Source: Flavobacterium sp. WV_118_3 (lineage in GTDB: Bacteria > Bacteroidota > Bacteroidia > Flavobacteriales > Flavobacteriaceae). Taken from it: a DNA stretch of 64,000 nt. The notes below the pieces were generated by a model. That model did no database searches. It worked only from the letters and a program-made list of their open reading frames with translations, and had not been told where the DNA came from. Both the position numbers and the translations under genes were made by a program. This document shows positions 4,439-16,702 of the stretch, piece by piece (within the stretch, counting starts at the first letter, position 1; every line of letters begins with the position of its first letter). The DNA is taken from assembly GCF_039778605.1 (NCBI RefSeq), contig NZ_CP156060.1:1240001-1304000 (forward strand). The letters are read 5' to 3'.

Positions 4439-5644
4439 TTAATTTAAAATCGAAAGTTCCTTCATACAATCTTTCATCATCTGATAGGTTCTCTCAATAT
4501 CGTTATCCAATCCGATGGAGAAACGGATTAATCCGTCTGTTAAGCCCATTTCGGCTTGTTCTTCCAATGGAATTTCGGAAGATGTTGATGTTCCCGGTGC
4601 ACTGAATAAGGTTTTGTAAAACCCTAAGCTCACCGCCAGGTATCCTAAATTACGGTTTTGCATCAATTCCATAAGCGCATTGGCTTTATCCAACGAACCT
4701 ACGTCAATCGTTAACATACCACCAAATCCGTATTCCGGATTGATCATATTTTTATAAAGTTCATGGCTCGGGTGACTTGCTAATCCCGGATATACGGTTT
4801 TAATTCCGTCTTTTTCAAATTTTTCAGCCAGATACAGAGCGTTATGACTGTGTTGTTTCATACGGATATGTAACGTTCTCAGGTTTTTTAAAACACTGGC
4901 CGAACGCAAACTGTCCATTGTTGGACCTAAAAGCATGCTGGCTCCGTCGTTTACATTTTTTAAGGAGTTGATAAAGTCATGCGTTCCGCAAACCACACCG
5001 CCAACTGTATCGCTACTTCCGTTGATGTATTTTGTTAAACTGTGAATCACCACATCGGCTCCTAATTTGGCAGGCGCTACCGATAAGGGCGAAAAAGTAT
5101 TGTCAACAACCAAAGTAAGGTTGTGCTTTTTAGCCAGTTTGGCAAGACTCTCAATATCGGCTACTTCCAATAAAGGATTACTAACCGTTTCGCAGTACAA
5201 TACTTTAGTATTGGGTTGGATAGCGGCTTCTACCACGTCCAGTTTCGTAATGTCTACAAATGTTGTTTTAATACCCAAACGAGGTCCGAAATTTTTAAGG
5301 AAAGCATACGTTCCACCATAAATGGTACGACTAGACACTATGTGTTCTCCATTTTGACATAGTTGCAATAAGGTTGGTGTGATCGCGCCCATTCCGGATG
5401 CCGCTACGTTGGCCGTTTCGGTTCCTTCCATCGCAGCCAACGCTTCACCTAAATATAAGTTACTAGGGGAAGAGTGACGGGAATAAAGGTAGCAACCTTC
5501 GGCATTTCCTTCGAAAGTATCGAACATGGTTTTGGCCGACAGGAAGGTATAGGTAGACGAATCGGAGATAGATGGGTTAACGCCTCCAAATTCGCCAAAA
5601 TACTGTAAGTCCTGTATTTTATCAGCCGGGTTGAAATTTTTCAT
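4439..5644 (-). CDS. Cys/Met metabolism PLP-dependent lyase, methionine gamma-lyase-like
   Basis: A 401-aa fold-type I PLP enzyme of the trans-sulfuration family (cystathionine gamma-synthase, cystathionine gamma-lyase, methionine gamma-lyase). The PLP lysine is Lys205 in HSLTKYINGSSD; Asp181 in VVDNTF binds the pyridine nitrogen; YSRHSSP near residues 54-60 contributes the phosphate-binding Tyr/Arg from the partner subunit. The gene is divergent from an Lrp-family regulator (5837-6295), as in the mdeA/mdeR pair of Pseudomonas putida, which favours methionine gamma-lyase. However, the cysteine that typifies methionine gamma-lyases (IYGC in P. putida) is Gly111 here (TIYGGTY). Cystathionine gamma-lyase or O-acetylhomoserine sulfhydrylase activity therefore remains possible. 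The family is certain, the substrate is not. Confidence 0.88.
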   Translation of the reverse strand: MKNFNPADKIQDLQYFGEFGGVNPSISDSSTYTFLSAKTMFDTFEGNAEGCYLYSRHSSPSNLYLGEALAAMEGTETANVAASGMGAITPTLLQLCQNGEHIVSSRTIYGGTYAFLKNFGPRLGIKTTFVDITKLDVVEAAIQPNTKVLYCETVSNPLLEVADIESLAKLAKKHNLTLVVDNTFSPLSVAPAKLGADVVIHSLTKYINGSSDTVGGVVCGTHDFINSLKNVNDGASMLLGPTMDSLRSASVLKNLRTLHIRMKQHSHNALYLAEKFEKDGIKTVYPGLASHPSHELYKNMINPEYGFGGMLTIDVGSLDKANALMELMQNRNLGYLAVSLGFYKTLFSAPGTSTSSEIPLEEQAEMGLTDGLIRFSIGLDNDIERTYQMMKDCMKELSILN

Positions 5645-5836
5645 GCTTCTATAGTTAGTTGTGTTATACTATGTAATATAAAATGTCAAAATAAAGTTAT
5701 TGGTGAAAAAAAGTCAATGATAGTTTTTAAACTTAGATAATAAAACTATTAAAATGTATATTTGTAGTTTAATTTTTTGTTTTAAAGTGATTTATACTAT
5801 TTTGACCAATTTTTTTTAATTCTACTAACGATCCGT
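5645..5836. promoter_or_regulatory. Divergent promoter region between PLP lyase and Lrp regulator
   Basis: 192 A+T-rich bases separate the two divergent genes. TATATTTG at 5757-5764 fits the Bacteroidota -7 box TAnnTTTG reading toward the regulator gene. Lrp-type proteins usually bind such intergenic regions and control both directions, so this is the expected operator region, but I cannot point to a clear palindrome. Confidence 0.5.
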
Positions 5837-6295
5837 ATGAAATTCGATAACATTGATAAAAAATTGCTGCAATTGTTGCAAAATGATTGTAAGCTGACCA
5901 ATAAAGAGCTTTCGCTAAAACTGAACCTATCGGTTACGGCCGTTTACGAACGCATTAAGAAAATCGAAAAAGAAGGCATTATTTCGCGCTATGTAGCACT
6001 TTTAAATCGAAATAAGATCGAAAAAGGATTTGTCGTGTTTTGTCATTTAAAGCTAACACAACATACCCGCGAGTTTATCAGTCAGTTTGAAAAAGAAGTG
6101 GTGCAGCTAAATGAAGTCCTGGAGTGCTTTCATGTGAGTGGTGATTACGATTATATCCTTAAGATATGTGTAAAGGATATGGAAGAATACCGGGAATTTA
6201 TGGTTACAAAACTGACTACATTGCAGCATATTGGCAGTACTCATAGTACTTTTATGATTGGTCAGGTTAAGAATACTACATCTTTTGTGATTTAA
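5837..6295 (+). CDS. Lrp/AsnC family transcriptional regulator
   Basis: A 152-aa DNA-binding regulator of amino-acid metabolism. The N-terminal 60 residues hold the winged helix-turn-helix (DKKLLQLLQNDCKLTNKELS, then LSVTAVYERIKKIEKEGII). Residues of about 70-150 form the ligand-binding RAM domain with the typical FHVSGDYDYILKI strand. The length is normal for the family. It is divergent from a methionine gamma-lyase-like gene, so local control of methionine or cysteine breakdown is the natural inference. The downstream peptide array begins 80 bases later and could be read from the same transcript, since I see no terminator hairpin in between. Confidence 0.93.
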   Translation: MKFDNIDKKLLQLLQNDCKLTNKELSLKLNLSVTAVYERIKKIEKEGIISRYVALLNRNKIEKGFVVFCHLKLTQHTREFISQFEKEVVQLNEVLECFHVSGDYDYILKICVKDMEEYREFMVTKLTTLQHIGSTHSTFMIGQVKNTTSFVI

Positions 6296-6375
6296 AGCCT
6301 TTTTTTATATTATTTGTATTGCATTTTGCGAATAAATTCTTATTTTGGCAAATAATTAATCAAACCAAATAACTT

Positions 6376-6576
6376 ATGAAAACAAACCTTTTAAACATCA
6401 CCGGAGTACAGGTGTTATCGAAAGAAAACCAAAGAAGTATTTACGGACAAGTATTCGTGGAAGAACCGATCGATTTGAGCAAATGTGGTTGCTCGTGCAG
6501 TGGCGCTGTAACCGGACCGGCTTATTGTGATCGCTATTTTGGATGTCCTCAGGTATACACTTGTGGTGAAGTATAA
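6376..6576 (+). CDS. Six-cysteine leader peptide, array copy 1
   Basis: A 66-aa peptide precursor, first of four tandem paralogues. Residues 1-25 (MKTNLLNITGVQVLSKENQR then SIYGQ) resemble the leaders of Bacteroidota bacteriocin-like and RiPP precursors, which have a lysine/asparagine-rich start, a GxQxLSKxxQ box and a glycine at the cleavage site. Here the usual GG is GQ. The core has six cysteines in the pattern C-x-C-x-C-x9-C-x5-C-x5-C, with GCSCSGAVTGPAYC and CPQVYTC. There is no hydrophobic signal peptide, so export would need a leader peptidase-type ABC transporter, and none is encoded nearby. The function is unknown; antimicrobial, signalling or metal-binding roles are all open. Confidence 0.85.
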   Translation: MKTNLLNITGVQVLSKENQRSIYGQVFVEEPIDLSKCGCSCSGAVTGPAYCDRYFGCPQVYTCGEV

Positions 6577-6606
6577 GCTATTCTAATCGCATTAATCTAT
6601 TTAATT

Positions 6607-6801
6607 ATGAAAACAAATCTTTTAAATATTTCCGGAGTACAAGTGTTATCCAAAGAGAACCAAAGACAAATTTCAGGACAGGCATTGGTTATAGGTGATA
6701 TCTCCAAATGTGGTTGTTCGTGCAGTGGTTCGGTAACGGGACCGGCTTATTGTCAGCGTATCATGGTCTGTCCTCAGGTGTATACTTGTAATCATATATA
6801 A
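6607..6801 (+). CDS. Six-cysteine leader peptide, array copy 2
   Basis: A 64-aa paralogue of the preceding gene. The leader is nearly identical (MKTNLLNISGVQVLSKENQR, then QISGQ). The spacer before the first cysteine is two residues shorter (ALVIGDISK). The six-cysteine core keeps exactly the same spacing, with GCSCSGSVTGPAYC and CPQVYTC. The 30-base stretch before its ATG (GCTATTCTAATCGCATTAAT and onward) is repeated exactly before copy 3, which points to a recent tandem duplication. The variable positions are the five residues between cysteines 4 and 5 (QRIMV) and the tail. Confidence 0.85.
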   Translation: MKTNLLNISGVQVLSKENQRQISGQALVIGDISKCGCSCSGSVTGPAYCQRIMVCPQVYTCNHI

Positions 6802-6831
6802 GCTATTCTAATCGCATTAATCTATTTAATT

Positions 6832-7038
6832 ATGAAAACAAATCTTTTAAATATTTCCGGAGTTCAAGTGTTATCGAAAGAGAACCAAAGACAAATTTTA
6901 GGACAAGTATTGGTTGAAGAACCACATGATTTATCCAAATGCGGATGCTCATGCAGTGGCTCGGTAACCGGACCTGCGTATTGCAGTCTGTATATCGGTT
7001 GTTTACAGGTATACAATTGTGGTGAAACAAAAATATAA
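6832..7038 (+). CDS. Six-cysteine leader peptide, array copy 3
   Basis: A 68-aa paralogue with leader MKTNLLNISGVQVLSKENQR followed by QILGQ. The core matches the others in cysteine spacing but is the most diverged after cysteine 5: CLQVYNC in place of CPQVYTC, with a slightly longer tail GETKI. The upstream 30 bases are identical to those before copy 2, so the unit of duplication (225 bases) includes the ribosome-binding region. An open frame on the opposite strand across this gene has no family features and is a shadow. Confidence 0.84.
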   Translation: MKTNLLNISGVQVLSKENQRQILGQVLVEEPHDLSKCGCSCSGSVTGPAYCSLYIGCLQVYNCGETKI

Positions 7039-7067
7039 TTGAATTTGAACTATTTAACCCCAAAACT

Positions 7068-7268
7068 ATGAAAGCAAATCTTTTAAACATTGCTGGTGTT
7101 CAGGTGCTAACCAAAGAACATCAAAGAGCTATTACAGGAGAAATTGAAATCATCAACCCGGATCTATCCCTGTGCGGATGTTCGTGCAGTGGTTCGGTAA
7201 CCGGACCGGCGTATTGCCGTAAATATATTGCTTGTCCACAGGTATATACTTGTCAGGAAGTAATGTAA
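7068..7268 (+). CDS. Six-cysteine leader peptide, array copy 4
   Basis: A 66-aa paralogue and the most diverged leader of the four (MKANLLNIAGVQVLTKEHQR, then AITGE, with GE at the position of GQ). The core is again GCSCSGSVTGPAYC, five variable residues (RKYIA), then CPQVYTC. Its upstream spacer differs from those of copies 2 and 3, so it is probably an older duplicate. A hairpin with a T-run follows at 7288-7324 and closes the array. The gene call rests on strict conservation with the other three copies, not on any known function. Confidence 0.84.
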   Translation: MKANLLNIAGVQVLTKEHQRAITGEIEIINPDLSLCGCSCSGSVTGPAYCRKYIACPQVYTCQEVM

Positions 7269-7678
7269 TCCAAAAACAAAAAAAGGTAGAGGGCTGTCTC
7301 AAATGGAGATAGCCCTCTTTTTGTTTTATATAGCATCAACGAATCAAAAAATAAAATCAGAATCAGACAAAAACTATTGATCAAATTAATTGGTCGTTCC
7401 ATTGTGTGCAATCAGAAAATTGTGATTTTACTTTTGTGACAGCCTCTTTTTGGTGTTTTGTTTTTGTGAATACTGCCACGAAATGAATCGGTTTTAAATA
7501 GTAAAAGAGGTAGAGTAGTAAAGCTAATTGTTGGCAGAATGAACTTAGTTGTTACAAAACAAAATTATACCGTTTATTTTGATATTTGGTTAACTTTTAT
7601 GTTCAAAAAAAACAAATGCATTTTGTGAATTATTTTGTAAATTGTTATTAAAAATGTCCCATTTATAAATAGCAATTT
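7269..7678. other. Non-coding gap between peptide array and signalling operon
   Basis: This 410-base A+T-rich stretch holds the array terminator, a second copy of its arm in inverted orientation at 7431-7451 (CTTTTGTGACAGCCTCTTTT) and, closer to 7679, presumably the promoter of the response regulator gene. I found no convincing TAnnTTTG box and no -24/-12 sigma-54 element (GG-N10-GC) in it, and no coding potential. Confidence 0.6.
7288..7324 (+). terminator. Terminator of the peptide array
   Basis: Inverted repeat AGAGGGCTGTCTC / GAGATAGCCCTCT (two G-U type positions) followed by TTTTTG. It lies 20 bases after the stop of copy 4. The left arm also resembles the end of a short inverted-repeat pair (see 7288-7451). 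Confidence 0.75.
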
Positions 7679-9037
7679 ATGCAGGCTCTTAAAATATTTT
7701 TAGTGGAGGATGATCCCTTTTTTGGAGAGGTAATTAAGTATCATTTAATGTTAAATCCCGATTATACCGTTACTCTTTTTCAAACCGGGAAAGAATGTCT
7801 TGAAAAGTTGTTTTTAAAGCCGGATATAGTTTGTCTTGACTTCGGATTACCCGATATTTCAGGAGATGTACTCTTAAAAAAAATTCTACAAATTAATAAT
7901 ACTGTTTCGGTAATCATGATTAGCGGACAGGAAGATATCGAAGTGGCTGTCAACTGCTTAAAGGCCGGTGCCCAAGATTATATTGTTAAAAACAATAATA
8001 CTAAAGATCTTTTATGGAATTCGATAATCAAAATCCGGGAAAATCGCAATTTGCAAAATGAGGTCGAAGTACTTAAAGAAAAATTAGAACAGAAATTTAG
8101 TTTTGCTAATACCATTATTGGACAGAGTGACGCTATTAAAACTGTTTTTAAGAAAATTGAAAAAGCGGCGCAATCCAATATTACGGTTTCAATATCCGGT
8201 GAAACGGGAACTGGAAAAGAAGTGGTAGCAAACGCAATCCATTATAATTCGGAACGAAAGAATAAACCTTTCATTGCTGTTAACATGGCAGCAATACCTA
8301 GAGAGCTAATTGAAAGTGAATTTTTTGGGCATGAGAAAGGTGCTTTTACAGGAGCCGATAACCGCGTCATCGGTAAGTTTGAACAGGCAGATGGAGGAAC
8401 AATATTCTTAGACGAAATAGCAGAACTGGATTTAAGTCTTCAAAGTAAACTATTACGGGTGTTACAGGAGCGGGAAGTGACTCGTATAGGAGGAACCACT
8501 AAAATTAAATTGAATGTCCGACTAGTAATTGCTACTCATAAGGATTTGAAACAGGAAGTTGTAAAAGGAAACTTTAGAGAAGATTTGTATTATCGTGTTA
8601 TTGGACTTCCTATTGAATTGCCGCCTTTGCGGGATAGAAAAAATGATGTTTTACTATTGGCAAAACACTTTATCGATCTGTTTACAAAAGAAAACAAAAT
8701 GAAAACAATAGGATTAACAAAGGGTGCGCAGGAAAAATTATTAAAGTATCCGTTTCCGGGTAATGTCCGGGAATTAAAATCAGTTATAGATCTGGCTTGT
8801 GTTATGTGTGATGATCAACAAATTTCAGAAGAAAACCTGATGTTTAACAGTTTAAGAGAAACGGATTTCTTTTTATCGGAATCCAAAACACTCAAAGAGT
8901 ATACTTCGGAAATCATTATGTACTTTCTAAAGCAAAATAAAAACGATGTCTTAAAAACGGCAAAACAATTAGATATCGGAAAATCGACAATATATAATTT
9001 AATTCAATCGGTTCAACTAAAAAATATAGCGTTATGA
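7679..9037 (+). CDS. Sigma-54-dependent response regulator, NtrC family
   Basis: A 452-aa two-component activator of sigma-54 RNA polymerase. Residues 1-120 are a receiver domain with acidic pocket Glu10/Asp11/Asp12, phosphoacceptor Asp54 (VCLDFGLPD) and Lys104. Residues of about 143-375 are an AAA+ domain with Walker A GETGTGK (174-180), the sigma-54 contact motif GAFTGA (221-226) and Walker B TIFLDE (241-246). The last 50 residues form a Fis-type helix-turn-helix (DVLKTAKQLDIGKSTIYNLI). All residues needed for activity are present. Its stop overlaps the start of the FIST gene by four bases (ATGA), so the two are co-translated. The likely partner kinase is encoded at 10179-13229. Confidence 0.95.
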   Translation: MQALKIFLVEDDPFFGEVIKYHLMLNPDYTVTLFQTGKECLEKLFLKPDIVCLDFGLPDISGDVLLKKILQINNTVSVIMISGQEDIEVAVNCLKAGAQDYIVKNNNTKDLLWNSIIKIRENRNLQNEVEVLKEKLEQKFSFANTIIGQSDAIKTVFKKIEKAAQSNITVSISGETGTGKEVVANAIHYNSERKNKPFIAVNMAAIPRELIESEFFGHEKGAFTGADNRVIGKFEQADGGTIFLDEIAELDLSLQSKLLRVLQEREVTRIGGTTKIKLNVRLVIATHKDLKQEVVKGNFREDLYYRVIGLPIELPPLRDRKNDVLLLAKHFIDLFTKENKMKTIGLTKGAQEKLLKYPFPGNVRELKSVIDLACVMCDDQQISEENLMFNSLRETDFFLSESKTLKEYTSEIIMYFLKQNKNDVLKTAKQLDIGKSTIYNLIQSVQLKNIAL

Positions 9038-10176
9038 AAATAGCTTCTTTATTGTTTGAGAATAATTCCTTTTGTAAAGAAGTGAACACTGACGGACTAG
9101 TATATGAAGATGCAGAACTGGTTATTGGTTTTGGTTTAAGGGAATTGGTAACGAATCCATCTAATTTTATAAAAATACGGGATACGTTTCCAAACGCTAA
9201 ACTGGTTTTGTGTTCGTCGGCTGGAGAAATCTACCATGATACTGTTTTTAACAATACAATCTCATTAGTTGCTCTTACCTTTTCAACGACGGCTGTAAAA
9301 ACATTCGAAGTCAACAGTAAAGCTTTTAGTTCCAGTTATGATGCCGGTGTTGCACTAATCAAAAAGTTTTCCGGGGACAATTTGAAACTGGTGATGATTT
9401 TTTCGGATGGCGGGATCGTTAACGGAAGTGAGTTAGTAAAAGGAATCAACGCTTTTAAAGGGGAAAATGTACTTATTACCGGTGGTTTGGCTGGTGATGG
9501 TGCCGATTTTAACGAAACGGTGGTAGGATTAGACCAGCTTCCGAAGTCGGGTACTATTGTAGGTATCGGTTTTTATGGTGATCAACTGCAGGTGTCCCAT
9601 GGTTCGATGGGAGGATGGGAAAGTTTTGGCTTGGAGAGGACGGTTACAAAAGCAGATGGGAATGTTTTATACCAGATTGATGAGAAAAATGTGCTGGAAC
9701 TTTATAAAAGTTATTTGGGAAAGTATACTGAAAAGCTTCCCGCATCGGCATTATTGTTTCCGCTATCAATTCAAACGGGAAACGAATCGAAACCTATTGT
9801 AAGAACAATATTGTCTATCGATGAAGATAATCAATCGATGATATTTGCCGGTGATATCCCAATAGGGAGTAAGGTACGTTTTATGCGGTCTAATTTCGAT
9901 AGGTTGATTGATGCGGCAAGTCAGGCCGCTTCGGCTTGTCTGGAAATGAATAACTTTAAGCCCAAGCTGGCATTACTCATTAGTTGTGTTGGACGAAAAT
10001 TGGTTTTGGACACTAGAACAGAGGAGGAAATTGAGGCTGTTTCGGAAATCTTAGGCGAAGGAACTATTCTTTCCGGGTTTTATTCCTATGGCGAAATATC
10101 GCCGTTAAAACCATGGGAAGATTGTGTACTGCATAATCAGACAATGACTATTACGTGTTTAAGTGAAATCGATTAA
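9034..10176 (+). CDS. FIST domain sensor protein
   Basis: A 380-aa soluble protein with FIST_N (about residues 20-190) and FIST_C (about 210-360) domains. Supporting segments are CSSAGEI (60-66), the glycine-rich GGLAGDGADF (150-159) and the VSHGSMGGWESFG stretch near residues 187-199. FIST proteins are thought to sense small molecules for signalling proteins. In Pseudomonas, Shewanella and Vibrio the FIST protein NosP binds haem and nitric oxide and controls a co-encoded hybrid kinase (NahK/HnoK type). The gene here overlaps the response regulator by four bases and precedes a hybrid kinase by two, matching that arrangement. A histidine at 189 could be a ligand, but haem binding is only a guess. 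Confidence 0.88.
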   Translation: MKIASLLFENNSFCKEVNTDGLVYEDAELVIGFGLRELVTNPSNFIKIRDTFPNAKLVLCSSAGEIYHDTVFNNTISLVALTFSTTAVKTFEVNSKAFSSSYDAGVALIKKFSGDNLKLVMIFSDGGIVNGSELVKGINAFKGENVLITGGLAGDGADFNETVVGLDQLPKSGTIVGIGFYGDQLQVSHGSMGGWESFGLERTVTKADGNVLYQIDEKNVLELYKSYLGKYTEKLPASALLFPLSIQTGNESKPIVRTILSIDEDNQSMIFAGDIPIGSKVRFMRSNFDRLIDAASQAASACLEMNNFKPKLALLISCVGRKLVLDTRTEEEIEAVSEILGEGTILSGFYSYGEISPLKPWEDCVLHNQTMTITCLSEID

Positions 10177-10178
10177 TT

Positions 10179-13100
10179 ATGGAAGTCCATAAACTATTAC
10201 AACGGCAAATTAAAAAACATCTTACAGATGATTGTCTGAAAAATCCACAGTTTACAACATTTATCAATTCGGTTAATGAATCGTATCATTCGTTTGAAAG
10301 AGATAAAGATCTGTTGGAACATGCTTTTCAGATAAGTGAAAAAGAATACAATGAAATTAACGATAATCTAAAAAAAGAATATGCCTTAAAACAGCAGTCG
10401 ATATCGAATTTATTTGCGAATATTCTGGAACTGGATGCCGAATATGTTATGCAGTCTGATAATAATAAGGACGATTTATTACTCGTTACAGGTTATGTAA
10501 GCAGACAAATTAAGGAAAGAAAGAAGGTCGAAAAAAAACTACGGCAAACCGTCGAATTACTCCAAGCATTACTGGATAATTTACGATCGGGTATCTTAGT
10601 CGTCGATAATCAGGGGAAGATAGCATTTATCAACAGTTATTTCTGTGAAATGCGAAAAATAAGTATAGCGCCGGAACATTTGGTTGGAGCCGACCATTCG
10701 AGGATTTTCGATGAGTCTAAAATCGTTTTTAAAAATCGAGAAGCGTATGCGGAACGAGTAAATGCCATTGTAGAAAAAAATGAACTAGTGATCGGAGAGT
10801 TGTTGGAAACAGAGGAAGGATACTTTTTTGAGCGGGATTATATTCCGATTTTTATTGAACAGGAAAGTGTGGGACATCTGTGGAAACTTCGCGATGTTAC
10901 CGAAAAAACACAATATCAAAATTTATTGGTACAAAGTGAAGAATTCAACAGAATTATTATGAATTCTTCTTTTAATGCCATCATAACGGTCGATGCTTCC
11001 GGAAAAATCACTTCATGGAATAAGCAGGCTGAAATTATTTTTGGCTGGAGAAAGGAAGAAGTGATCGGAGAAAGTTTAATAAAACGGATTATTCCGAGCA
11101 CCGATCTAAAGTCCTATATGAAGGGAATGGAATATTATGTAAAAACGGTTACTGAAGATAATTTGAGTACCCAACTTGAAATTGAAGTGATCAATCGATT
11201 TGGCGTCCAGTTTCCGGTGGAACTTTTTGTTGTACCATTGGAGCAAAACGGAGAACGGTTTTTCTGTTCCTTTATTCAGGATATTTCAGAACGAAAAGAA
11301 AATGAAGCACGATTGCGGTTTCAGGAAGAAAAGTATCGGAATATTATCACGAATATGAATTTGGGATTAATAGAGGTCGATGTAAATGAAACGATTCAGT
11401 TTGCTAATAAAAGTTTTGCCGGAATGTGCGGTTTTGAGATTTCGGAACTTATCGGAAAAAAACCAGCCGAAATATTTGTTTTTGGTGAAAATATTAGCAC
11501 CATCAAAAGTAAAATAAAATTGCGTGAACAAGGAGTGTCGGATGTTTATCAAATTCCGATTAAGAATAAAAGGGGAGAATTGAAATGGTGGGCTATTGGT
11601 GGTGCTCCCAATTATGACGATAACGGAAAACTGATCGGTTCTATCGGTATCCATTTGGATATCACAGCACAGAAAGAGCTTGAAATTGAATTACAAAAAG
11701 AGAAATTAAAAGCTATTGAGGCCTCAAAAGCAAAAGAGGTTTTTTTAGCCAATATGAGTCATGAAATGCGAACGCCGCTTAATGCCATTATTGGTTTTAT
11801 AAGAGAATTAAATAAGGAATCACTTTCGGAAAAACAACATGCTTGTGTGGAAAATTGCCGGATTGCTTCCAAACACCTACTGGATATTATCAATAATATT
11901 CTGGATATCTCAAAAATTGAAGCCGGTGAAATCGCGTTGGAAAATAAAGATTTTATCCTAAAAGAATCGCTGGATAAGGTGATCCGGGTAATGAAACCGG
12001 TAGCAAAACAAAAAGGTTTACGCCTTAGTTTTTTTATGGACGAAAAAATTTGTCCGGTGGTAATTGGGGATGCGCTTCGATTGGAACAGATCTTGTTTAA
12101 TCTGATCGGAAATGCGTTAAAGTTTACACCAAAAGGAAAGATAACGCTGAGTTGCATTTTGGAATCAGAAACGATACACGAACTGCAAGTGCATATTGCT
12201 GTTACGGATACGGGTATTGGAATGGATCAGGCTTTTATAAAAAAAATTTTTAGTAAATTTTCTCAGGAGGATATTGCGGTTACCCGAAAATTTGGCGGTA
12301 CCGGATTAGGGATGGCCATAACCAAAGAGCTAGTGAATATGATGAAAGGAGAAATATGGGTGGAAAGTACTAAAAATATAGGCACAACGATGCACATTCG
12401 GATCGTCTTGCCAAAAGGGAATATGGTTGATGTGGTTAAAGAGGAAAAAGAGATCAATGTTGATATTACCGGAGTTCGGATTTTATTGGTGGAGGATAAT
12501 CCGATGAACCGGTTGGTGGCTATTAATTCACTCAATTATTTTAATGCTGTGGTAACTGAGGCATGCGATGGAAACGAGGCTTTGGAGATAGTAGCCAAAA
12601 CGAAATTTGATATTATTCTGATGGATGTTCAAATGCCGGGAATGGATGGTATGGAAGCCACTGATAAAATCCGGAACCAGCTTAAATTGACTATTCCGAT
12701 AATTGCGCTTACAGCTAACGCATTTAAGAGTGAAATCGATAAATGCAGGGAAGTCGGAATGAATGATTATGTTACAAAACCGTTTGAAGAACGGGTATTG
12801 ATCGAAACGATTGCAAAATATACGGTAAACAATGTTGTGGTAGATGAAGACGACGACCTTATGGATTCCACATATGATCAAGAGGGATACGATCTTACGA
12901 ACATCAAAATTTTAAGTAGAGGAAATGATTCTTTTGTTGCGAAAATGATCCACATTTTTATAACGCAAACAACAGAAACGCTTCAGAAAATTGACCGTGC
13001 ATTTGAGTCTGGCGACTTACTTGAAGTAAGTCGTTTAGTCCATAAGGTTAAGCCTAGTATAGAAAGTATTGGTATTAAGGCGGTTCTCAATGAGGTAAAG

Positions 13101-13229
13101 GCACTTGAGATTATGGCTAAAGAGAATAATACGGGTAACCTTAAGGATTGTATACAGTTGTATAAACCCGTTAAAAAGCATTTGCTTTTGGTAATTGAAA
13201 AACTTAAGAAAGTATTTGATATGTCCTAA
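10179..13229 (+). CDS. PAS-containing hybrid sensor histidine kinase with receiver and HPt domains
   Basis: A 1016-aa soluble kinase with no membrane segments. A coiled-coil start (1-125) is followed by three PAS-like domains (about 128-240, 250-375 and 380-500). Then come the HisKA dimerisation domain with His528 (ANMSHEMRTPLN), an HATPase domain with N box LIGNALKF and G boxes DTGIGM and GGTGLGM, a receiver domain with Asp816 (ILMDVQMPGMDG) and Lys867, and a C-terminal HPt domain with His955 (LVHKVKPS). It thus contains a full phosphorelay. The gene starts two bases after the FIST gene, so the FIST protein is the probable cytoplasmic input. Phosphate could pass from the HPt domain to the regulator at 7679-9037 or to the one at 13359-13793. 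Confidence 0.95.
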   Translation: MEVHKLLQRQIKKHLTDDCLKNPQFTTFINSVNESYHSFERDKDLLEHAFQISEKEYNEINDNLKKEYALKQQSISNLFANILELDAEYVMQSDNNKDDLLLVTGYVSRQIKERKKVEKKLRQTVELLQALLDNLRSGILVVDNQGKIAFINSYFCEMRKISIAPEHLVGADHSRIFDESKIVFKNREAYAERVNAIVEKNELVIGELLETEEGYFFERDYIPIFIEQESVGHLWKLRDVTEKTQYQNLLVQSEEFNRIIMNSSFNAIITVDASGKITSWNKQAEIIFGWRKEEVIGESLIKRIIPSTDLKSYMKGMEYYVKTVTEDNLSTQLEIEVINRFGVQFPVELFVVPLEQNGERFFCSFIQDISERKENEARLRFQEEKYRNIITNMNLGLIEVDVNETIQFANKSFAGMCGFEISELIGKKPAEIFVFGENISTIKSKIKLREQGVSDVYQIPIKNKRGELKWWAIGGAPNYDDNGKLIGSIGIHLDITAQKELEIELQKEKLKAIEASKAKEVFLANMSHEMRTPLNAIIGFIRELNKESLSEKQHACVENCRIASKHLLDIINNILDISKIEAGEIALENKDFILKESLDKVIRVMKPVAKQKGLRLSFFMDEKICPVVIGDALRLEQILFNLIGNALKFTPKGKITLSCILESETIHELQVHIAVTDTGIGMDQAFIKKIFSKFSQEDIAVTRKFGGTGLGMAITKELVNMMKGEIWVESTKNIGTTMHIRIVLPKGNMVDVVKEEKEINVDITGVRILLVEDNPMNRLVAINSLNYFNAVVTEACDGNEALEIVAKTKFDIILMDVQMPGMDGMEATDKIRNQLKLTIPIIALTANAFKSEIDKCREVGMNDYVTKPFEERVLIETIAKYTVNNVVVDEDDDLMDSTYDQEGYDLTNIKILSRGNDSFVAKMIHIFITQTTETLQKIDRAFESGDLLEVSRLVHKVKPSIESIGIKAVLNEVKALEIMAKENNTGNLKDCIQLYKPVKKHLLLVIEKLKKVFDMS

Positions 13230-13358
13230 AATTGTTTCGATGGAATTGTTTCCAAAATATGGAAAATAACAACATCTTTTTTGTTTTTAATATACTGATA
13301 ATCTGATTGTTAATTGTATGGTCTGACTTTGGTTGTGCTATAAATAAAAAAAGCAATC

Positions 13359-13793
13359 ATGGAAAATCAGACCCAATTCAAAATTTTTATTGTAGATGAC
13401 GATGTATTCTGTGCCAATGTATATGAGCAACATTTACGAAACAGTCATTACAATGCTATTACTTTTTATGATAACGGAAACGACTGCATTCTGAATCTTT
13501 ATCAGAATCCCGATATCATTTTTTTGGACCATAACATGGAGGATATTACGGGCTTTGAAGTCTTAAAAAAGATTAAACGATATAACCCGAATATCTATGT
13601 GATTATGGTTTCCGGTCAGGAAAACATCAAAACCGCTGTCGATGCACTGAAATATGGCGCTTTTGATTACGTCATAAAAGATAATGATGCCTGTGATAAA
13701 ATCATACAATTAATTAATAAGGTGGCGCGGGTAAAGGAAGAACTCCGAAAATCCAACCCAAATATTATTCAACGGTTGTTATCCCTTTTTTAA
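13359..13793 (+). CDS. Single-domain response regulator
   Basis: A 144-aa receiver domain with no output domain. The acidic residues IVDDD (11-15), phosphoacceptor Asp57 (IFLDHNMED) and Lys107 (YVIKDND) are all present, and about 25 basic residues follow the domain. It resembles the receiver of the sigma-54 regulator at 7679 in several stretches (KAGAQDYIVKNN compared with KYGAFDYVIKDN), so the two may be paralogues competing for the same phosphodonor. It lies 129 bases after the hybrid kinase, possibly with its own promoter. Such proteins act as phosphate shuttles or sinks or by protein contact. Confidence 0.9.
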   Translation: MENQTQFKIFIVDDDVFCANVYEQHLRNSHYNAITFYDNGNDCILNLYQNPDIIFLDHNMEDITGFEVLKKIKRYNPNIYVIMVSGQENIKTAVDALKYGAFDYVIKDNDACDKIIQLINKVARVKEELRKSNPNIIQRLLSLF

Positions 13794-13812
13794 TGCACTT
13801 AAAATGCAAATC

Positions 13813-13932
13813 ATGAAAACGATAGTTGGTTACCTCATTGTGGTTTTATTTTTCAGCTCCTGTAAAACCCAGAATTTATTAGTTCAGGACGATACTGTAA
13901 AAGATTCGACAGACGAATGGCTATGGTACTAA
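13813..13932 (+). CDS. Small lipoprotein, 39 aa
   Basis: A short frame not usually called because of its length. It encodes MKTIVGYLIVVLFFSSCKTQ and a 19-residue acidic tail ending DEWLWY. The basic start, hydrophobic stretch and lipobox FSSC make a complete lipoprotein signal, so the mature product would be a lipid-anchored peptide of about 21 residues. An in-frame ATG at 13804 is an alternative start. It begins 20 bases after the response regulator gene and could share its transcript. The function is unknown. Confidence 0.6.
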   Translation: MKTIVGYLIVVLFFSSCKTQNLLVQDDTVKDSTDEWLWY

Positions 13933-14018
13933 TGTTTGTAGCCGTAATTAAAATACTATTGCTCTTTCACGGATTAAAAGAATGGACAGCCATCCTGAAA
14001 AAACTGGAACAAGGCTAG
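13932..14018 (+). CDS. Possible microprotein overlapping the small lipoprotein
   Basis: A 28-aa frame starts at the ATG overlapping the preceding stop (TAATG), an arrangement typical of translational coupling. It has a hydrophobic start (FVAVIKILLLFH) and an amphipathic charged end (KEWTAILKKLEQG), which would suit a small membrane peptide. ATGs at 13917 and 13923 give longer forms. It is supported only by the overlap and composition and could be chance. Confidence 0.3.
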   Translation: MFVAVIKILLLFHGLKEWTAILKKLEQG

Positions 14019-14173
14019 TTGAAAAGATTGTGCCAGTAAGGAAAAAAGGAAAATTACACCGGGAATTTAATCGTAATAGTCATTATAATTGTTTTAAACG
14101 ATTCTGACGTTTAATGTATTTTGGGTATAATTTTATTTTGAAAATAAACCGATTTCGTCTAAACAAAAATGCT

Positions 14174-14181
14174 TAATTTTG
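14174..14181 (+). promoter_or_regulatory. Putative -7 box of lpdA
   Basis: TAATTTTG matches the Bacteroidota consensus TAnnTTTG and lies 41 bases before the lpdA start codon. No clear -33 TTG at standard spacing was seen. Confidence 0.45.
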
Positions 14182-14221
14182 TAATGAAATTTTTAAAAAC
14201 ACAACATAATATAATTATACT

Positions 14222-15625
14222 ATGAGTTCATTTGACGTAGTTGTTATTGGTTCGGGGCCTGGAGGCTATGTAGCGGCAATCCGTTGCGCCCAATTAGGAA
14301 TGAAAACGGCCATTATTGAAAAATATTCCACTTTAGGAGGTACTTGTTTAAATGTTGGATGTATCCCGTCTAAAGCAATGTTGGCTTCTTCCCACCATTT
14401 CGAAGAAATTTCTCATTTTGCAGATCACGGTATTGAAGTGAGCGGTGACGTGAAAGTGAACCTTGAAAAAATGGTGGCCCGTAAAAAAGCTGTTGTTGAT
14501 CAAACTGCCGGAGGGGTGAAATACCTGATGGATAAAAATAAAATTACCGTATTCGAAGGAGTAGGTGCTTTTGAAAGCGCTACAGCTATCGCGATTACTA
14601 AAAAAGATGGTTCGGTTGAAAAAATCGAAGCAAAAAATACCATTATTGCTACCGGTTCAAAACCATCCAGCTTACCTTTTATCAAAATCGATAAAGAAAG
14701 AATCATCACCTCTACAGAAGCATTGGAATTAAAAGAAGTTCCGAAACATTTAGTGATCATCGGTGGTGGTGTCATCGGGTTGGAACTAGGTCAGGTGTAT
14801 TTACGTCTTGGTGCTCAGGTTTCTGTGGTGGAATTTATGGATCGTATTATTCCGGGCATGGATGCCGGTTTGTCGAAAGAATTGACAAAGGTGTTGAAAA
14901 AACAGGGAATGAAATTCTATACGTCACATAAAGTTCAGGCGGTGGATCGTAACGGAGAAGTGGTCACCGTTAAAGCGGAGAACGCTAAAGGTGAAGTGAT
15001 CACCCTTGAAGGTGACTACGCGTTGATTTCAGTAGGTCGTCGTCCGTATACAGAAGGATTAAATGCCGATAAAGCCGGTGTGAAAATTACCGAAAGAGGT
15101 CAGATTGAAGTAAATGATCATTTACAAACTACGGCGTCAAACATTTATGCTATCGGTGACGTAGTTCGCGGAGCGATGTTGGCGCACAAAGCAGAAGAAG
15201 AAGGTGTGGTTGTGGCAGAATACCTTGCCGGACAAAAACCACATATCGATTATAACCTAATTCCGGGTGTGGTATATACCTGGCCGGAAGTGGCTGCTGT
15301 TGGTAAAACAGAAGAGCAGTTAAAAGAAGCCGGAGTAGCCTACAAATCGGGAAGCTTCCCATTCAAAGCGTTAGGTCGTGCCCGTGCCGGAGGTGATACC
15401 GACGGATTTGTAAAAATCCTGGCCGATGCTAAAACCGATGAAGTTTTAGGCGTACATATGATTGGGCCTCGTTGTGCGGATTTAATCGCGGAAGCGGTTA
15501 CAGCTATGGAATTCAAAGCTTCGGCGGAAGATATTTCCAGAATGTCGCATGCACACCCAACATTTGCAGAAGCCATCAAAGAAGCGGCTTTAGCCGCTAC
15601 CGATAACAGAGCATTACACGTGTAA
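14222..15625 (+). CDS. lpdA: Dihydrolipoyl dehydrogenase
   Basis: The E3 flavoenzyme of the pyruvate and 2-oxoglutarate dehydrogenase complexes and of glycine cleavage. It reoxidises dihydrolipoamide with NAD. It is 467 aa, the normal length. An FAD-binding GSGPGG motif is at 10-15, the redox-active disulfide Cys42/Cys47 is in GGTCLNVGCIPSK, and a NAD-binding GGGVIGLELG segment is near residue 180. The C-terminal dimer-interface base pair His445/Glu450 is in HAHPTFAEA. It is a single gene with its own promoter and terminator. Confidence 0.97.
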   Translation: MSSFDVVVIGSGPGGYVAAIRCAQLGMKTAIIEKYSTLGGTCLNVGCIPSKAMLASSHHFEEISHFADHGIEVSGDVKVNLEKMVARKKAVVDQTAGGVKYLMDKNKITVFEGVGAFESATAIAITKKDGSVEKIEAKNTIIATGSKPSSLPFIKIDKERIITSTEALELKEVPKHLVIIGGGVIGLELGQVYLRLGAQVSVVEFMDRIIPGMDAGLSKELTKVLKKQGMKFYTSHKVQAVDRNGEVVTVKAENAKGEVITLEGDYALISVGRRPYTEGLNADKAGVKITERGQIEVNDHLQTTASNIYAIGDVVRGAMLAHKAEEEGVVVAEYLAGQKPHIDYNLIPGVVYTWPEVAAVGKTEEQLKEAGVAYKSGSFPFKALGRARAGGDTDGFVKILADAKTDEVLGVHMIGPRCADLIAEAVTAMEFKASAEDISRMSHAHPTFAEAIKEAALAATDNRALHV

Positions 15626-15645
15626 TTTTTGGAATCAAGATATAG

Positions 15646-15680
15646 AAAAGCCCCGATGAGTTTATCATCGGGGCTTTTTT
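15646..15680 (+). terminator. Terminator after lpdA
   Basis: Perfect stem AAAAGCCCCGATGA / TCATCGGGGCTTTT with a five-base loop and a T-run. The A-run on the other side lets it also serve the convergent lipoprotein gene. Confidence 0.92.
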
Positions 15681-15714
15681 ACATCTGACAGGTTTCCAAA
15701 ACGGGTCAGGTGTA
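15680..15714. repeat. Dispersed palindrome, copy 2 (degenerate)
   Basis: TACATCTGACAGGTTT and the arm GGGTCAGGTGTA form a decayed copy of the CCTGACAGGT palindrome, directly abutting the lpdA terminator. Confidence 0.75.
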
Positions 15715-15728
15715 GTTATGGGTGATAA

Positions 15729-16556
15729 TTATTTTACTTCAAAATACTGTCCGGTAAAGGTATAAACGGTAAAACCCTTTGTTACACTTCCGTCATTGGT
15801 TACCACCGGAAGATAAATCTGTTTTTTCTGATCATCGTATTTGATTAATTTCAACGGTCGTTCCGGTCGGTCAACTACACTAAAAAAGTCAAAGTCAATA
15901 CGTAATTCTTTTACAAATCCTTCTTTTGTTTTAAACAGTTTGGTTTCTTTTTTCAGTTCGCCATTTTCAATGGTAAAGACTTCAATCGACTGACTCACAT
16001 CTTTGGAGGAATACACACCATTGCTAACCGCTAAATAATAGGTTTTTGTACCGTTTTTTAGTGTGAACAGCTCCGAATAAAACGGAATATAATCATCATC
16101 ACTTTCGGGATTGGTGTCTTCCGATAATTTTGCTTTTACTTTTGTCCCGGATTGGTATTGGAACAAGTTCATAAAGTCTAACATGGTACCACCTTCCCAG
16201 GTATTCCAACTGTAAATTTTAAATAAGGAATCACTACTGATTACAATATCGATATTTTCCTTTTTTAAAGAATCAAATGGATATCGGATGGATTCCGGAT
16301 TTTTAGTCAGACTGTTTAAAAAGGCCGTTTGAAATTTTTCGTTCACCGTTTCTAAAGAATCAACAGGGATATCATTGCCATCGGAGTGATAGGCTACAAT
16401 TTTTTGATACATTTTTTGCAACATGAGTTCTTCTTCTTTTAAATGAGAAACCTGTTGCGGCGCTTTTGGATCGGGTGTATCTACCTTTTTTTGCTTCTGA
16501 TCGCAACTATTTAAAAATAGAGCCAGTAAAATAAATAAGGGAATACGGATTTTCAT
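15729..16556 (-). CDS. Lipoprotein of unknown function
   Basis: A 275-aa protein with a lipoprotein signal (MKIRIPLFILLALFLNSC; lipobox LNSC) followed by a charged, low-complexity linker. The rest contains no motif I recognise. It alternates hydrophilic beta-strand-like segments and ends YTFTGQYFEVK, which suggests a periplasmic or surface beta-rich domain. It stands alone, convergent with lpdA and downstream of dnaN on the same strand. A repeat and the dnaN terminator separate it from dnaN, so it is probably transcribed separately. Confidence 0.8.
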   Translation of the reverse strand: MKIRIPLFILLALFLNSCDQKQKKVDTPDPKAPQQVSHLKEEELMLQKMYQKIVAYHSDGNDIPVDSLETVNEKFQTAFLNSLTKNPESIRYPFDSLKKENIDIVISSDSLFKIYSWNTWEGGTMLDFMNLFQYQSGTKVKAKLSEDTNPESDDDYIPFYSELFTLKNGTKTYYLAVSNGVYSSKDVSQSIEVFTIENGELKKETKLFKTKEGFVKELRIDFDFFSVVDRPERPLKLIKYDDQKKQIYLPVVTNDGSVTKGFTVYTFTGQYFEVK

Positions 16557-16651
16557 GGTGTTGGATTAAGAGGTGAAATAATTAAACGCTTTTATATTGT
16601 AACATCTAAAAATAGGAATTTCCGGGTAGATGGTACTCATAGTGCTAGGTT

Positions 16652-16702
16652 TTTTTACTTACACCTGACAGGTTTCTAAAACCTGTCAGGTGTAAGTAAA
16701 AA
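16652..16702. repeat. Dispersed palindrome, copy 3 (extended)
   Basis: The longest copy: arms TTTTTACTTACACCTGACAG and its complement, 24-25 bp each, around a two-base centre. It lies between the lipoprotein gene and the dnaN terminator. As RNA it would fold into a very stable hairpin. Confidence 0.92.

Follow-up and report, generated by a model that had tools for sequence, protein, structure and literature searches.

An orphan six-cysteine peptide family of Flavobacteriales and its candidate C39/VKOR export system

Introduction

How would a set of small cysteine-rich peptides encoded in tandem be secreted and folded, and what constrains their sequence? The question is posed by an array in the window, by which we mean the whole 64-kb stretch of DNA analysed here. 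Four precursor open reading frames lie there head to tail on the + strand at 6376-7268, 29–30 nt apart and 64–68 aa long. The array and its flanks are as follows.

6296..6375, + strand: sequence preceding copy 1, probably the promoter
6376..6576, + strand: six-cysteine precursor copy 1 (66 aa; open reading frame and cysteine spacing)
6607..6801, + strand: six-cysteine precursor copy 2 (64 aa; cysteine spacing)
6832..7038, + strand: six-cysteine precursor copy 3 (68 aa; CLQVYNC variant)
7068..7268, + strand: six-cysteine precursor copy 4 (66 aa; cysteine spacing)
7288..7318, + strand: intrinsic-terminator-like stem-loop of 13 pairs with a T tail, ending the four-gene unit

Compared by eye, the upstream sequence is much alike in locus L032 of F. 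supellecticarium, which together with F. cerinum is the nearest named relative of the host genome.

The precursor family and its distribution

An initial annotation of this DNA had described a fixed C-x-C-x-C-x9-C-x5-C-x5-C spacing behind a leader of Bacteroidota type. The spacing holds in all four reading frames, and the leader common to the four precursors is of the double-glycine type, supporting that description. The core reads CGCSCSG[AS]VTGPAYC-x5-C-[PL]QVY[TN]C and its cysteines are spaced alike in every copy, copy 3 departing from the others in its CLQVYNC. The strings CSCSG, VTGPAYC and QVY, which had been called invariant, are so among the window copies; elsewhere CSCSG is often CDCAG in other genera, and the A of VTGPAYC is variable across the family.

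The four window precursors matched no Pfam or NCBIfam model at E <= 1, Rfam gave no match at window 5600-7700, and a full-length copy used as query found nothing in the host genome (3.85 Mb) at E <= 1 beyond the array itself. The AlphaFold model of the precursor has a mean pLDDT of 73 (79–84 in the core blocks) and a pTM of.39; a Foldseek search of this model against the PDB returned nothing better than E > 8, and the sole match of the family profile to PDB sequences had an E of.42. Four motif strings taken from the core are absent from the open-literature text searched, and neither the six-Cys family nor a VKOR/C39 peptide system was found in the literature looked through, including the available portions of PMC6671954, PMC10352776, PMC8939145 and PMC4573289. 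The core family thus appears to be unnamed, and the annotation's statement that it knew no named family is borne out in Pfam, NCBIfam and this literature.

Absence of homologues outside this strain, together with no expression, had been named as a result that would remove the claim of novelty or of function. Homologues do occur elsewhere. Using a single copy as query we recovered 71 protein clusters, and with a 50-row alignment (A1) 389 protein clusters at E <= 1e-5 among 7,990 candidates scored, as well as 139 places in genome contigs. Of these places, 80 were taken on, representing 79 distinct loci. The contig search placed relatives in Flavobacterium, Aquimarina, Tenacibaculum, Kordia, Dokdonia, Chryseobacterium and one further member of the Flavobacteriaceae, and their names in the source databases are of the type 'hypothetical protein', 'Natural product' or 'Bacteriocin'. 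Viral contigs yielded 13 pattern matches, none of which was confirmed.

Conservation and selection

Core statistics were computed for 105 precursors from 80 loci (the 79 plus the window), picked by the cysteine pattern and VTGP, a selection that itself makes the VTGP and cysteine columns invariant. The six cysteines span 27 residues in 105/105 precursors, though the pattern allowed 26–28. Column entropy averages 0.80 bits over the core and 1.80 over the final 20 residues of the leader. Within the core, variation is greatest (3.0–3.4 bits) at the residue preceding Y-C4 and at the two that follow C4, close to where the annotation had placed it, between cysteines 4 and 5. Two Kordia members deviate from VTGP-x-Y. 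The leader is about 25 aa long, with G at position -2 in 74 distinct leaders (the alignment was anchored there) and a variable position -1 at which Q, E, K and S are frequent; these residues are unusual there for C39 cleavage.

The window array was compared with that of L032, which also has four copies. Every window copy most resembles the L032 copy in the same position, with nucleotide identities for copies 1–4 of.88,.81,.86 and.88 on the diagonal and.67–.82 off it, the margin for copy 2 being small (.81 versus.78). The array is therefore probably older than the split between the window and F. supellecticarium, with its members kept apart, and its copies are not recent identical repeats. For the 27-residue core, the differences pooled over the four ortholog pairs number 39.5 at 73.5 synonymous sites and 5.5 at 250.5 nonsynonymous sites (dN.02, dS.95), and copy 3 shows zero nonsynonymous differences from L032 copy 3 across the core. 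The same pooled pairs gave dN.04 and dS.72 for the leader and dN.10 and dS.64 for linker and tail. Among the window paralogues linker and tail are far more divergent, with a pooled dN of.66 and dS of.81 from pairs that are not independent.

Because of its dN/dS of.02/.95, the core is judged from these substitutions to be under purifying, not diversifying, selection. The annotation's observation that synonymous codons differ while the amino acids stay constant holds, and its view that the peptide sequence is under selection gains support from the four ortholog pairs. Its proposal that the variable parts were diversified for recognition is not supported: these parts are constrained in the one orthologous array pair, and one core is kept across six genera. 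Diversification is seen instead in the VKOR/C39 regions described below, among Cys-rich peptides that share the leader.

Genomic neighbourhood

Three neighbours of the array belong to clusters that recur at Flavobacterium loci.

4439..5644, − strand: Cys/Met-metabolism PLP enzyme (PF01053 by Pfam; cluster in 12/16 Flavobacterium loci)
5837..6295, + strand: Lrp/AsnC-type regulator, left neighbour (PF01037 by Pfam; cluster in 15/16 Flavobacterium loci)
14222..15625, + strand: pyridine nucleotide-disulphide oxidoreductase (dihydrolipoyl dehydrogenase-like), the usual right neighbour in Flavobacterium (Pfam; cluster in 15/16 loci)

When neighbouring open reading frames of at least 70 aa were clustered across the 80 loci, sites recurred within a genus and differed between genera. 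Precursors aside, no cluster of three or more loci covers more than two genera, and at least 14 such clusters cover two. Immediate neighbours were scanned with Pfam in the window and in one locus each from five further genera. They are MgtE and a thioesterase in Aquimarina, an MFS transporter and a protein without a match in Chryseobacterium, GrpE and an EPSP-synthase-family enzyme in Tenacibaculum, MatE and a TPR/HTH protein in Kordia, an epimerase and a fatty-acid hydroxylase in Dokdonia, and the Cys/Met-metabolism enzyme, Lrp/AsnC and a sigma-54 regulator in the window. No maturase or C39 exporter was present beside the precursors in these scanned loci. With neighbours that are ordinary and genus-specific, the six-Cys peptides are therefore orphan precursors. 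A connection with the Lrp/AsnC and Cys/Met-metabolism genes next to the array was considered and dropped, since other genera have different neighbours.

The copies stand 166–348 nt apart in Kordia, Chryseobacterium, Dokdonia, Tenacibaculum and Aquimarina (seven gaps in five loci). No gene was seen by eye in the seven gaps from these five non-Flavobacterium genera, which suggests that the copies there may be separate transcription units.

Between the array and the lpdA-like gene, window 7679-13793 encodes a sigma-54 response regulator, a FIST-domain protein, a PAS hybrid histidine kinase and a response regulator. No open reading frame of this segment has a cluster partner in any of the other 79 loci, and the segment therefore looks like an insertion at the site.

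Co-occurrence with a C39 exporter and a VKOR fusion

Two partner families were counted in carrier genomes, a C39 exporter and a fusion of VKOR and thioredoxin domains. The same 49 carriers, drawn from 50 of the 79 contig loci with L056 left out, served for both counts. A C39 match is present in 49/49 carriers (weakest best E 1.9e-32) and in 128/397 genomes of a family draw, some of them weak, while the fusion is present in 49/49 carriers versus 55/397 family genomes. All 55 fusion genomes of the family draw have a C39 match (weak in G200, 3.3e-4). In some genomes C39 matches above cut-off land on the fusion itself, such as G415:C4:245576-245950 within the fusion at 245588-247165, so that a count of C39 matches may take in the C39-like domain of the fusion.

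Twenty-one genomes of the family draw have a six-Cys match at E <=.1, and five of them were counted as clear carriers (E <= 6e-20); the fusion is present in seven of the other 16 (E 1.4e-4 to.094) and absent from nine. Among C39-positive family genomes the fusion occurs in 5/5 carriers versus 50/123 others (p.013), an association that is weaker but present. The Flavobacterium draw has the peptide in 9/199 genomes and the fusion in 61, with all nine among the 61 (Fisher 1.5e-5, ignoring phylogeny). In the Chryseobacterium draw, which sampled the genus to which the C. indologenes genome belongs, the peptide is found in 126/138 and the fusion in 131/138: 126 genomes have both, none the peptide only, five the fusion only and seven neither (Fisher 4.9e-9, likewise ignoring phylogeny). 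The seven that lack both may represent a single loss, and the best fusion match is partial in two carriers, G677 and G701. The carrier threshold in these two genus draws was E <= 1e-6, with Chryseobacterium G771 weak at 2.5e-7.

None of the co-occurrence p-values takes account of phylogeny; carriers cluster in clades, and the 49 carriers and the family, Flavobacterium and Chryseobacterium draws partly overlap. What counts is not these values but an exceptionless one-way implication from peptide to fusion: the peptide never occurs without the fusion, in 49/49, 9/9 and 126/126 carriers (overlapping sets, with two of the 126 partial).

The host genome has two C39 exporters. One shares a locus with a 520-aa VKOR protein, the host's fusion, which lies at G000:C1:2591281-2592837, ~1.3 Mb from the array and ~6 kb from the exporter. 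The other adjoins a LanB gene in L114 (G000:C1:3128000-3146000), where positions 8697-16673 form a class I lanthipeptide-type locus with LanB (PF04738, PF14028), the C39 exporter, an HlyD-like gene and a GG-leader peptide.

Seven of the 49 carriers have a single C39 match. An HlyD-like gene is nearby in 7/7 (two HlyD genes were run through Pfam), the N-termini of the seven exporters look alike, and the fusion (~500–545 aa, matching alignment A2) lies in the same fetched region as the sole exporter in 6/7; in G408 it is on a different contig. No maturase was recognised near the sole exporter of these seven carriers in an inspection by eye of first residues only.

In the six fusions scanned, VKOR exceeds the Pfam cut-off in 6/6, Thioredoxin_4 is detected in 6/6 but above cut-off in only 2, and the C39-like N-terminus is found by Pfam in 2/6, below cut-off. 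The six aligned fusions (A2) keep Cys 188, 197, 264, 267, 379 and 382, and a fusion profile matched DsbA-like and VKOR/thioredoxin chains among PDB sequences. The fusion is a probable disulfide former.

A leader shared with diversifying peptides

Six-Cys precursors from Flavobacterium, Aquimarina, Tenacibaculum, Kordia and the further Flavobacteriaceae member were used to build a leader HMM. It was run on 48 C39/VKOR regions (761 kb; L113 and L115-L161, among which L117 has a C39 exporter and no fusion) and on a background of the 79 six-Cys loci plus the whole window (1,611 kb). At E <=.01 it matched 76 small open reading frames in the C39/VKOR regions versus 6 in the background, with the former confined to 23/48 regions. 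Of the six background matches, two (L070 and L090) are six-Cys variants from Kordia that the filter had excluded, and another (L046) is a GG peptide rich in cysteine that adjoins an array. All 76/76 leader-matched frames have at least four cysteines, versus 308/1,721 frames of 45–90 aa in the same regions. After rough trimming, their cores fall into 46 groups, 33 of them singletons; one group occurs in more than one genus, and it retains some leader residues.

Leader profiles from the remaining genera gave smaller numbers. That of Dokdonia has 5 matches in C39/VKOR regions versus 0 in the background, and that of Chryseobacterium 1 versus 0 at E <=.01, the one being in a Flavobacterium region. 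NF047798, a Chryseobacterium leader model, scores one VKOR-region peptide at 27.6. The leader HMM likewise has no match in the C39/VKOR regions of the host genome (L113) or F. supellecticarium (L122). With Chryseobacterium excepted, the six-Cys leader is shared by peptides encoded in VKOR/C39 regions.

Several of these peptides and regions deserve description. A 4-Cys core, LKDCIDPxTxxCKYYSxACAxPCRI, recurs in Flavobacterium VKOR/C39 regions (for example L116 12226-12405, L134 5642-5821 and L125 6409-6558) and forms the largest leader-sharing group, with eight members, all from Flavobacterium. In L046 the Cys-rich GG-leader peptide at 9800-9973 lies directly upstream of a six-Cys gene, and upstream in L073 the last part of a comparable reading frame can be seen. 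In L113 (G000:C1:2588000-2606000), positions 5213-9095 lie between the fusion and the C39 exporter of the host genome. They encode a possible ATP-grasp enzyme, whose MvdD domain scores 24.6 bits against a cut-off of 27, a protein of 347 aa that matches nothing in Pfam, and two small peptides containing GG, both of which have close copies in L122. The flanking order is the same in L115 (G400), which is without this cassette. To call the cassette 'Grasp-with-spasm' would be a guess.

Proposed mechanism and alternative explanations

With bacteroidetocins as the precedent, we infer the cleavage site, the export route, the disulfides and any activity of the six-Cys family. The ~25-residue leader ending in G-X would be recognised by a C39 peptidase/ABC exporter that works with an HlyD partner, and the exporter would cut after G-X and release a mature peptide of roughly 40 residues. 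The membrane-bound fusion of VKOR and a DsbA-like thioredoxin, with its C39-like N-terminus, would oxidise the six cysteines to three disulfides. The peptides would work in trans to the exporter/fusion locus, and the mature form would probably act on a conserved extracellular or envelope partner. Because loci in several genera encode peptides with the same leader and mostly species-specific cores, the six-Cys peptide would be the constant member of a repertoire; because one core is kept in six genera and in 126/138 Chryseobacterium genomes, a fixed partner is favoured. We put the probability of this explanation as a whole, comprising C39 export in trans, oxidation by the fusion, constant membership of the repertoire and a role with a conserved partner, at about 0.7.

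A more specific version can be offered only tentatively: that the peptide is a widely fixed, invariant three-disulfide signal or envelope ligand of several Flavobacteriales genera, secreted by a VKOR/C39 system that acts in trans and otherwise carries fast-evolving cargo. If so, a single export line would handle both this constant 'self' peptide and numerous variable ones, and a conserved receptor for the constant peptide would await discovery. On the conservation described above, a self-directed signal or envelope-active role seems more likely than that of a diversifying toxin or bacteriocin.

The alternative that survives best, though we regard it as unlikely, is that these are antibacterial toxins (class II-like, resembling bacteroidetocins) that use the same export machinery and have a broadly conserved target in other bacteria. 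Some databases do call relatives 'Bacteriocin', and the nearest characterised machinery is that of the bacteroidetocins, which are said in the accessible part of PMC8546649 to target BamA. The window copies match no bacteriocin model, and the breadth of the single core is unlike the variable peptides of the VKOR/C39 regions. We dropped the missing immunity gene as an argument against a toxin, because the bacteroidetocin regions, as described in the available portion of PMC6671954, have no obvious one and their producers inhibit themselves.

It is improbable that the peptides are RiPPs in the strict sense, with a core modified in trans by a radical-SAM/SPASM, lanthipeptide or graspetide enzyme. 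The scanned immediate neighbours, in the window and in one locus from each of five genera, include no maturase, and the inspection by eye of first residues near the sole C39 exporter of seven carriers recognised none. Such enzymes could be supplied from a distance, as the host genome has a LanB gene, the possible ATP-grasp gene in its VKOR/C39 locus and 15 radical-SAM places, and relatives bear a weak resemblance to TIGR04149 (best of ten 23.0 bits, cut-off 25). Least probable is that the CxCxC core is a metal-binding peptide (for example for copper or zinc) whose cysteines are not meant as disulfides: CxCxC with three further fixed cysteines would suit it, the leader alone leaves the chemistry unfixed and the scanned Aquimarina locus adjoins an MgtE-type cation transporter, but that neighbour is found in one lineage only (13 Aquimarina loci and one further Flavobacteriaceae locus), the precursor has no structure match and the association with the VKOR/thioredoxin fusion is tight.

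Export in trans with oxidation by the fusion, the reading we prefer, bears on how such peptides are found. Precursor peptides usually come to light through adjoining maturase or exporter genes, a rule to which the six-Cys family is invisible because its genes are orphans at genus-specific sites and the window copies match no database model. Disulfide-bonded, C39-exported GG peptides are already known as a kind; what appears new is the likely coupling of an orphan conserved peptide to a C39/VKOR export system, which was not found in the literature looked through. The analysis offers a concrete pairing of peptide, VKOR fusion and C39 exporter, and it opens the question of why one peptide is frozen while its leader-sharing companions diversify. 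Because Bacteroides is reported to be without general disulfide machinery (PMC6671954, part available), a dedicated oxidase for exported peptides would be of wider interest.

Comparison with known systems

Two leader models resemble the family. NF047798, a Chryseobacterium bacteriocin-like leader, and TIGR04149, an rSAM-modified RiPP leader, describe similar GG-type leaders, and the best of ten relatives reaches 21.7 bits against the former (cut-off 23.5), TIGR04149 too staying below its cut-off. Their matches centre on the leader, not on the six-Cys core, and the window copies are unmatched at E <= 1. Unlike class I lanthipeptides and graspetides, the precursors have no LanB or ATP-grasp gene beside them in the window and the five other-genus loci, the LanB locus of the host genome being elsewhere.

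The fusion combines VKOR and thioredoxin domains as do bacterial fusions such as PDB 4nv2 and 3kp9 (profile E.0018 and.015). Unlike these, it has an extra C39-like N-terminal part and, in the regions looked at, often lies near C39 exporters and Cys-rich precursors.

Bacteroidetocins, as the available text of PMC6671954 describes them, are class IIf peptides, of which A and B contain four cysteines and consist of a 15-aa leader and a 42-aa core. The predicted end of their leader is GG, and reduction alters how the peptides migrate. A four-gene region encodes a TM protein, the peptide, a thiol oxidoreductase and a C39 ABC exporter, and deletion of the oxidoreductase gene adjoining the exporter attenuates activity. 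The six-Cys system is like them in its Bacteroidota double-glycine leader, a predicted Cys-containing mature peptide of ~40 aa, a candidate C39 exporter and a candidate thiol oxidoreductase. Unlike bacteroidetocins A and B, it has six cysteines in another fixed pattern and a ~25-aa leader, and unlike the four-gene region, its precursor genes lie far from exporter and oxidoreductase among unrelated neighbours. Judged from these gene and sequence comparisons, bacteroidetocins are the closest known system, through their machinery and not through the core sequence.
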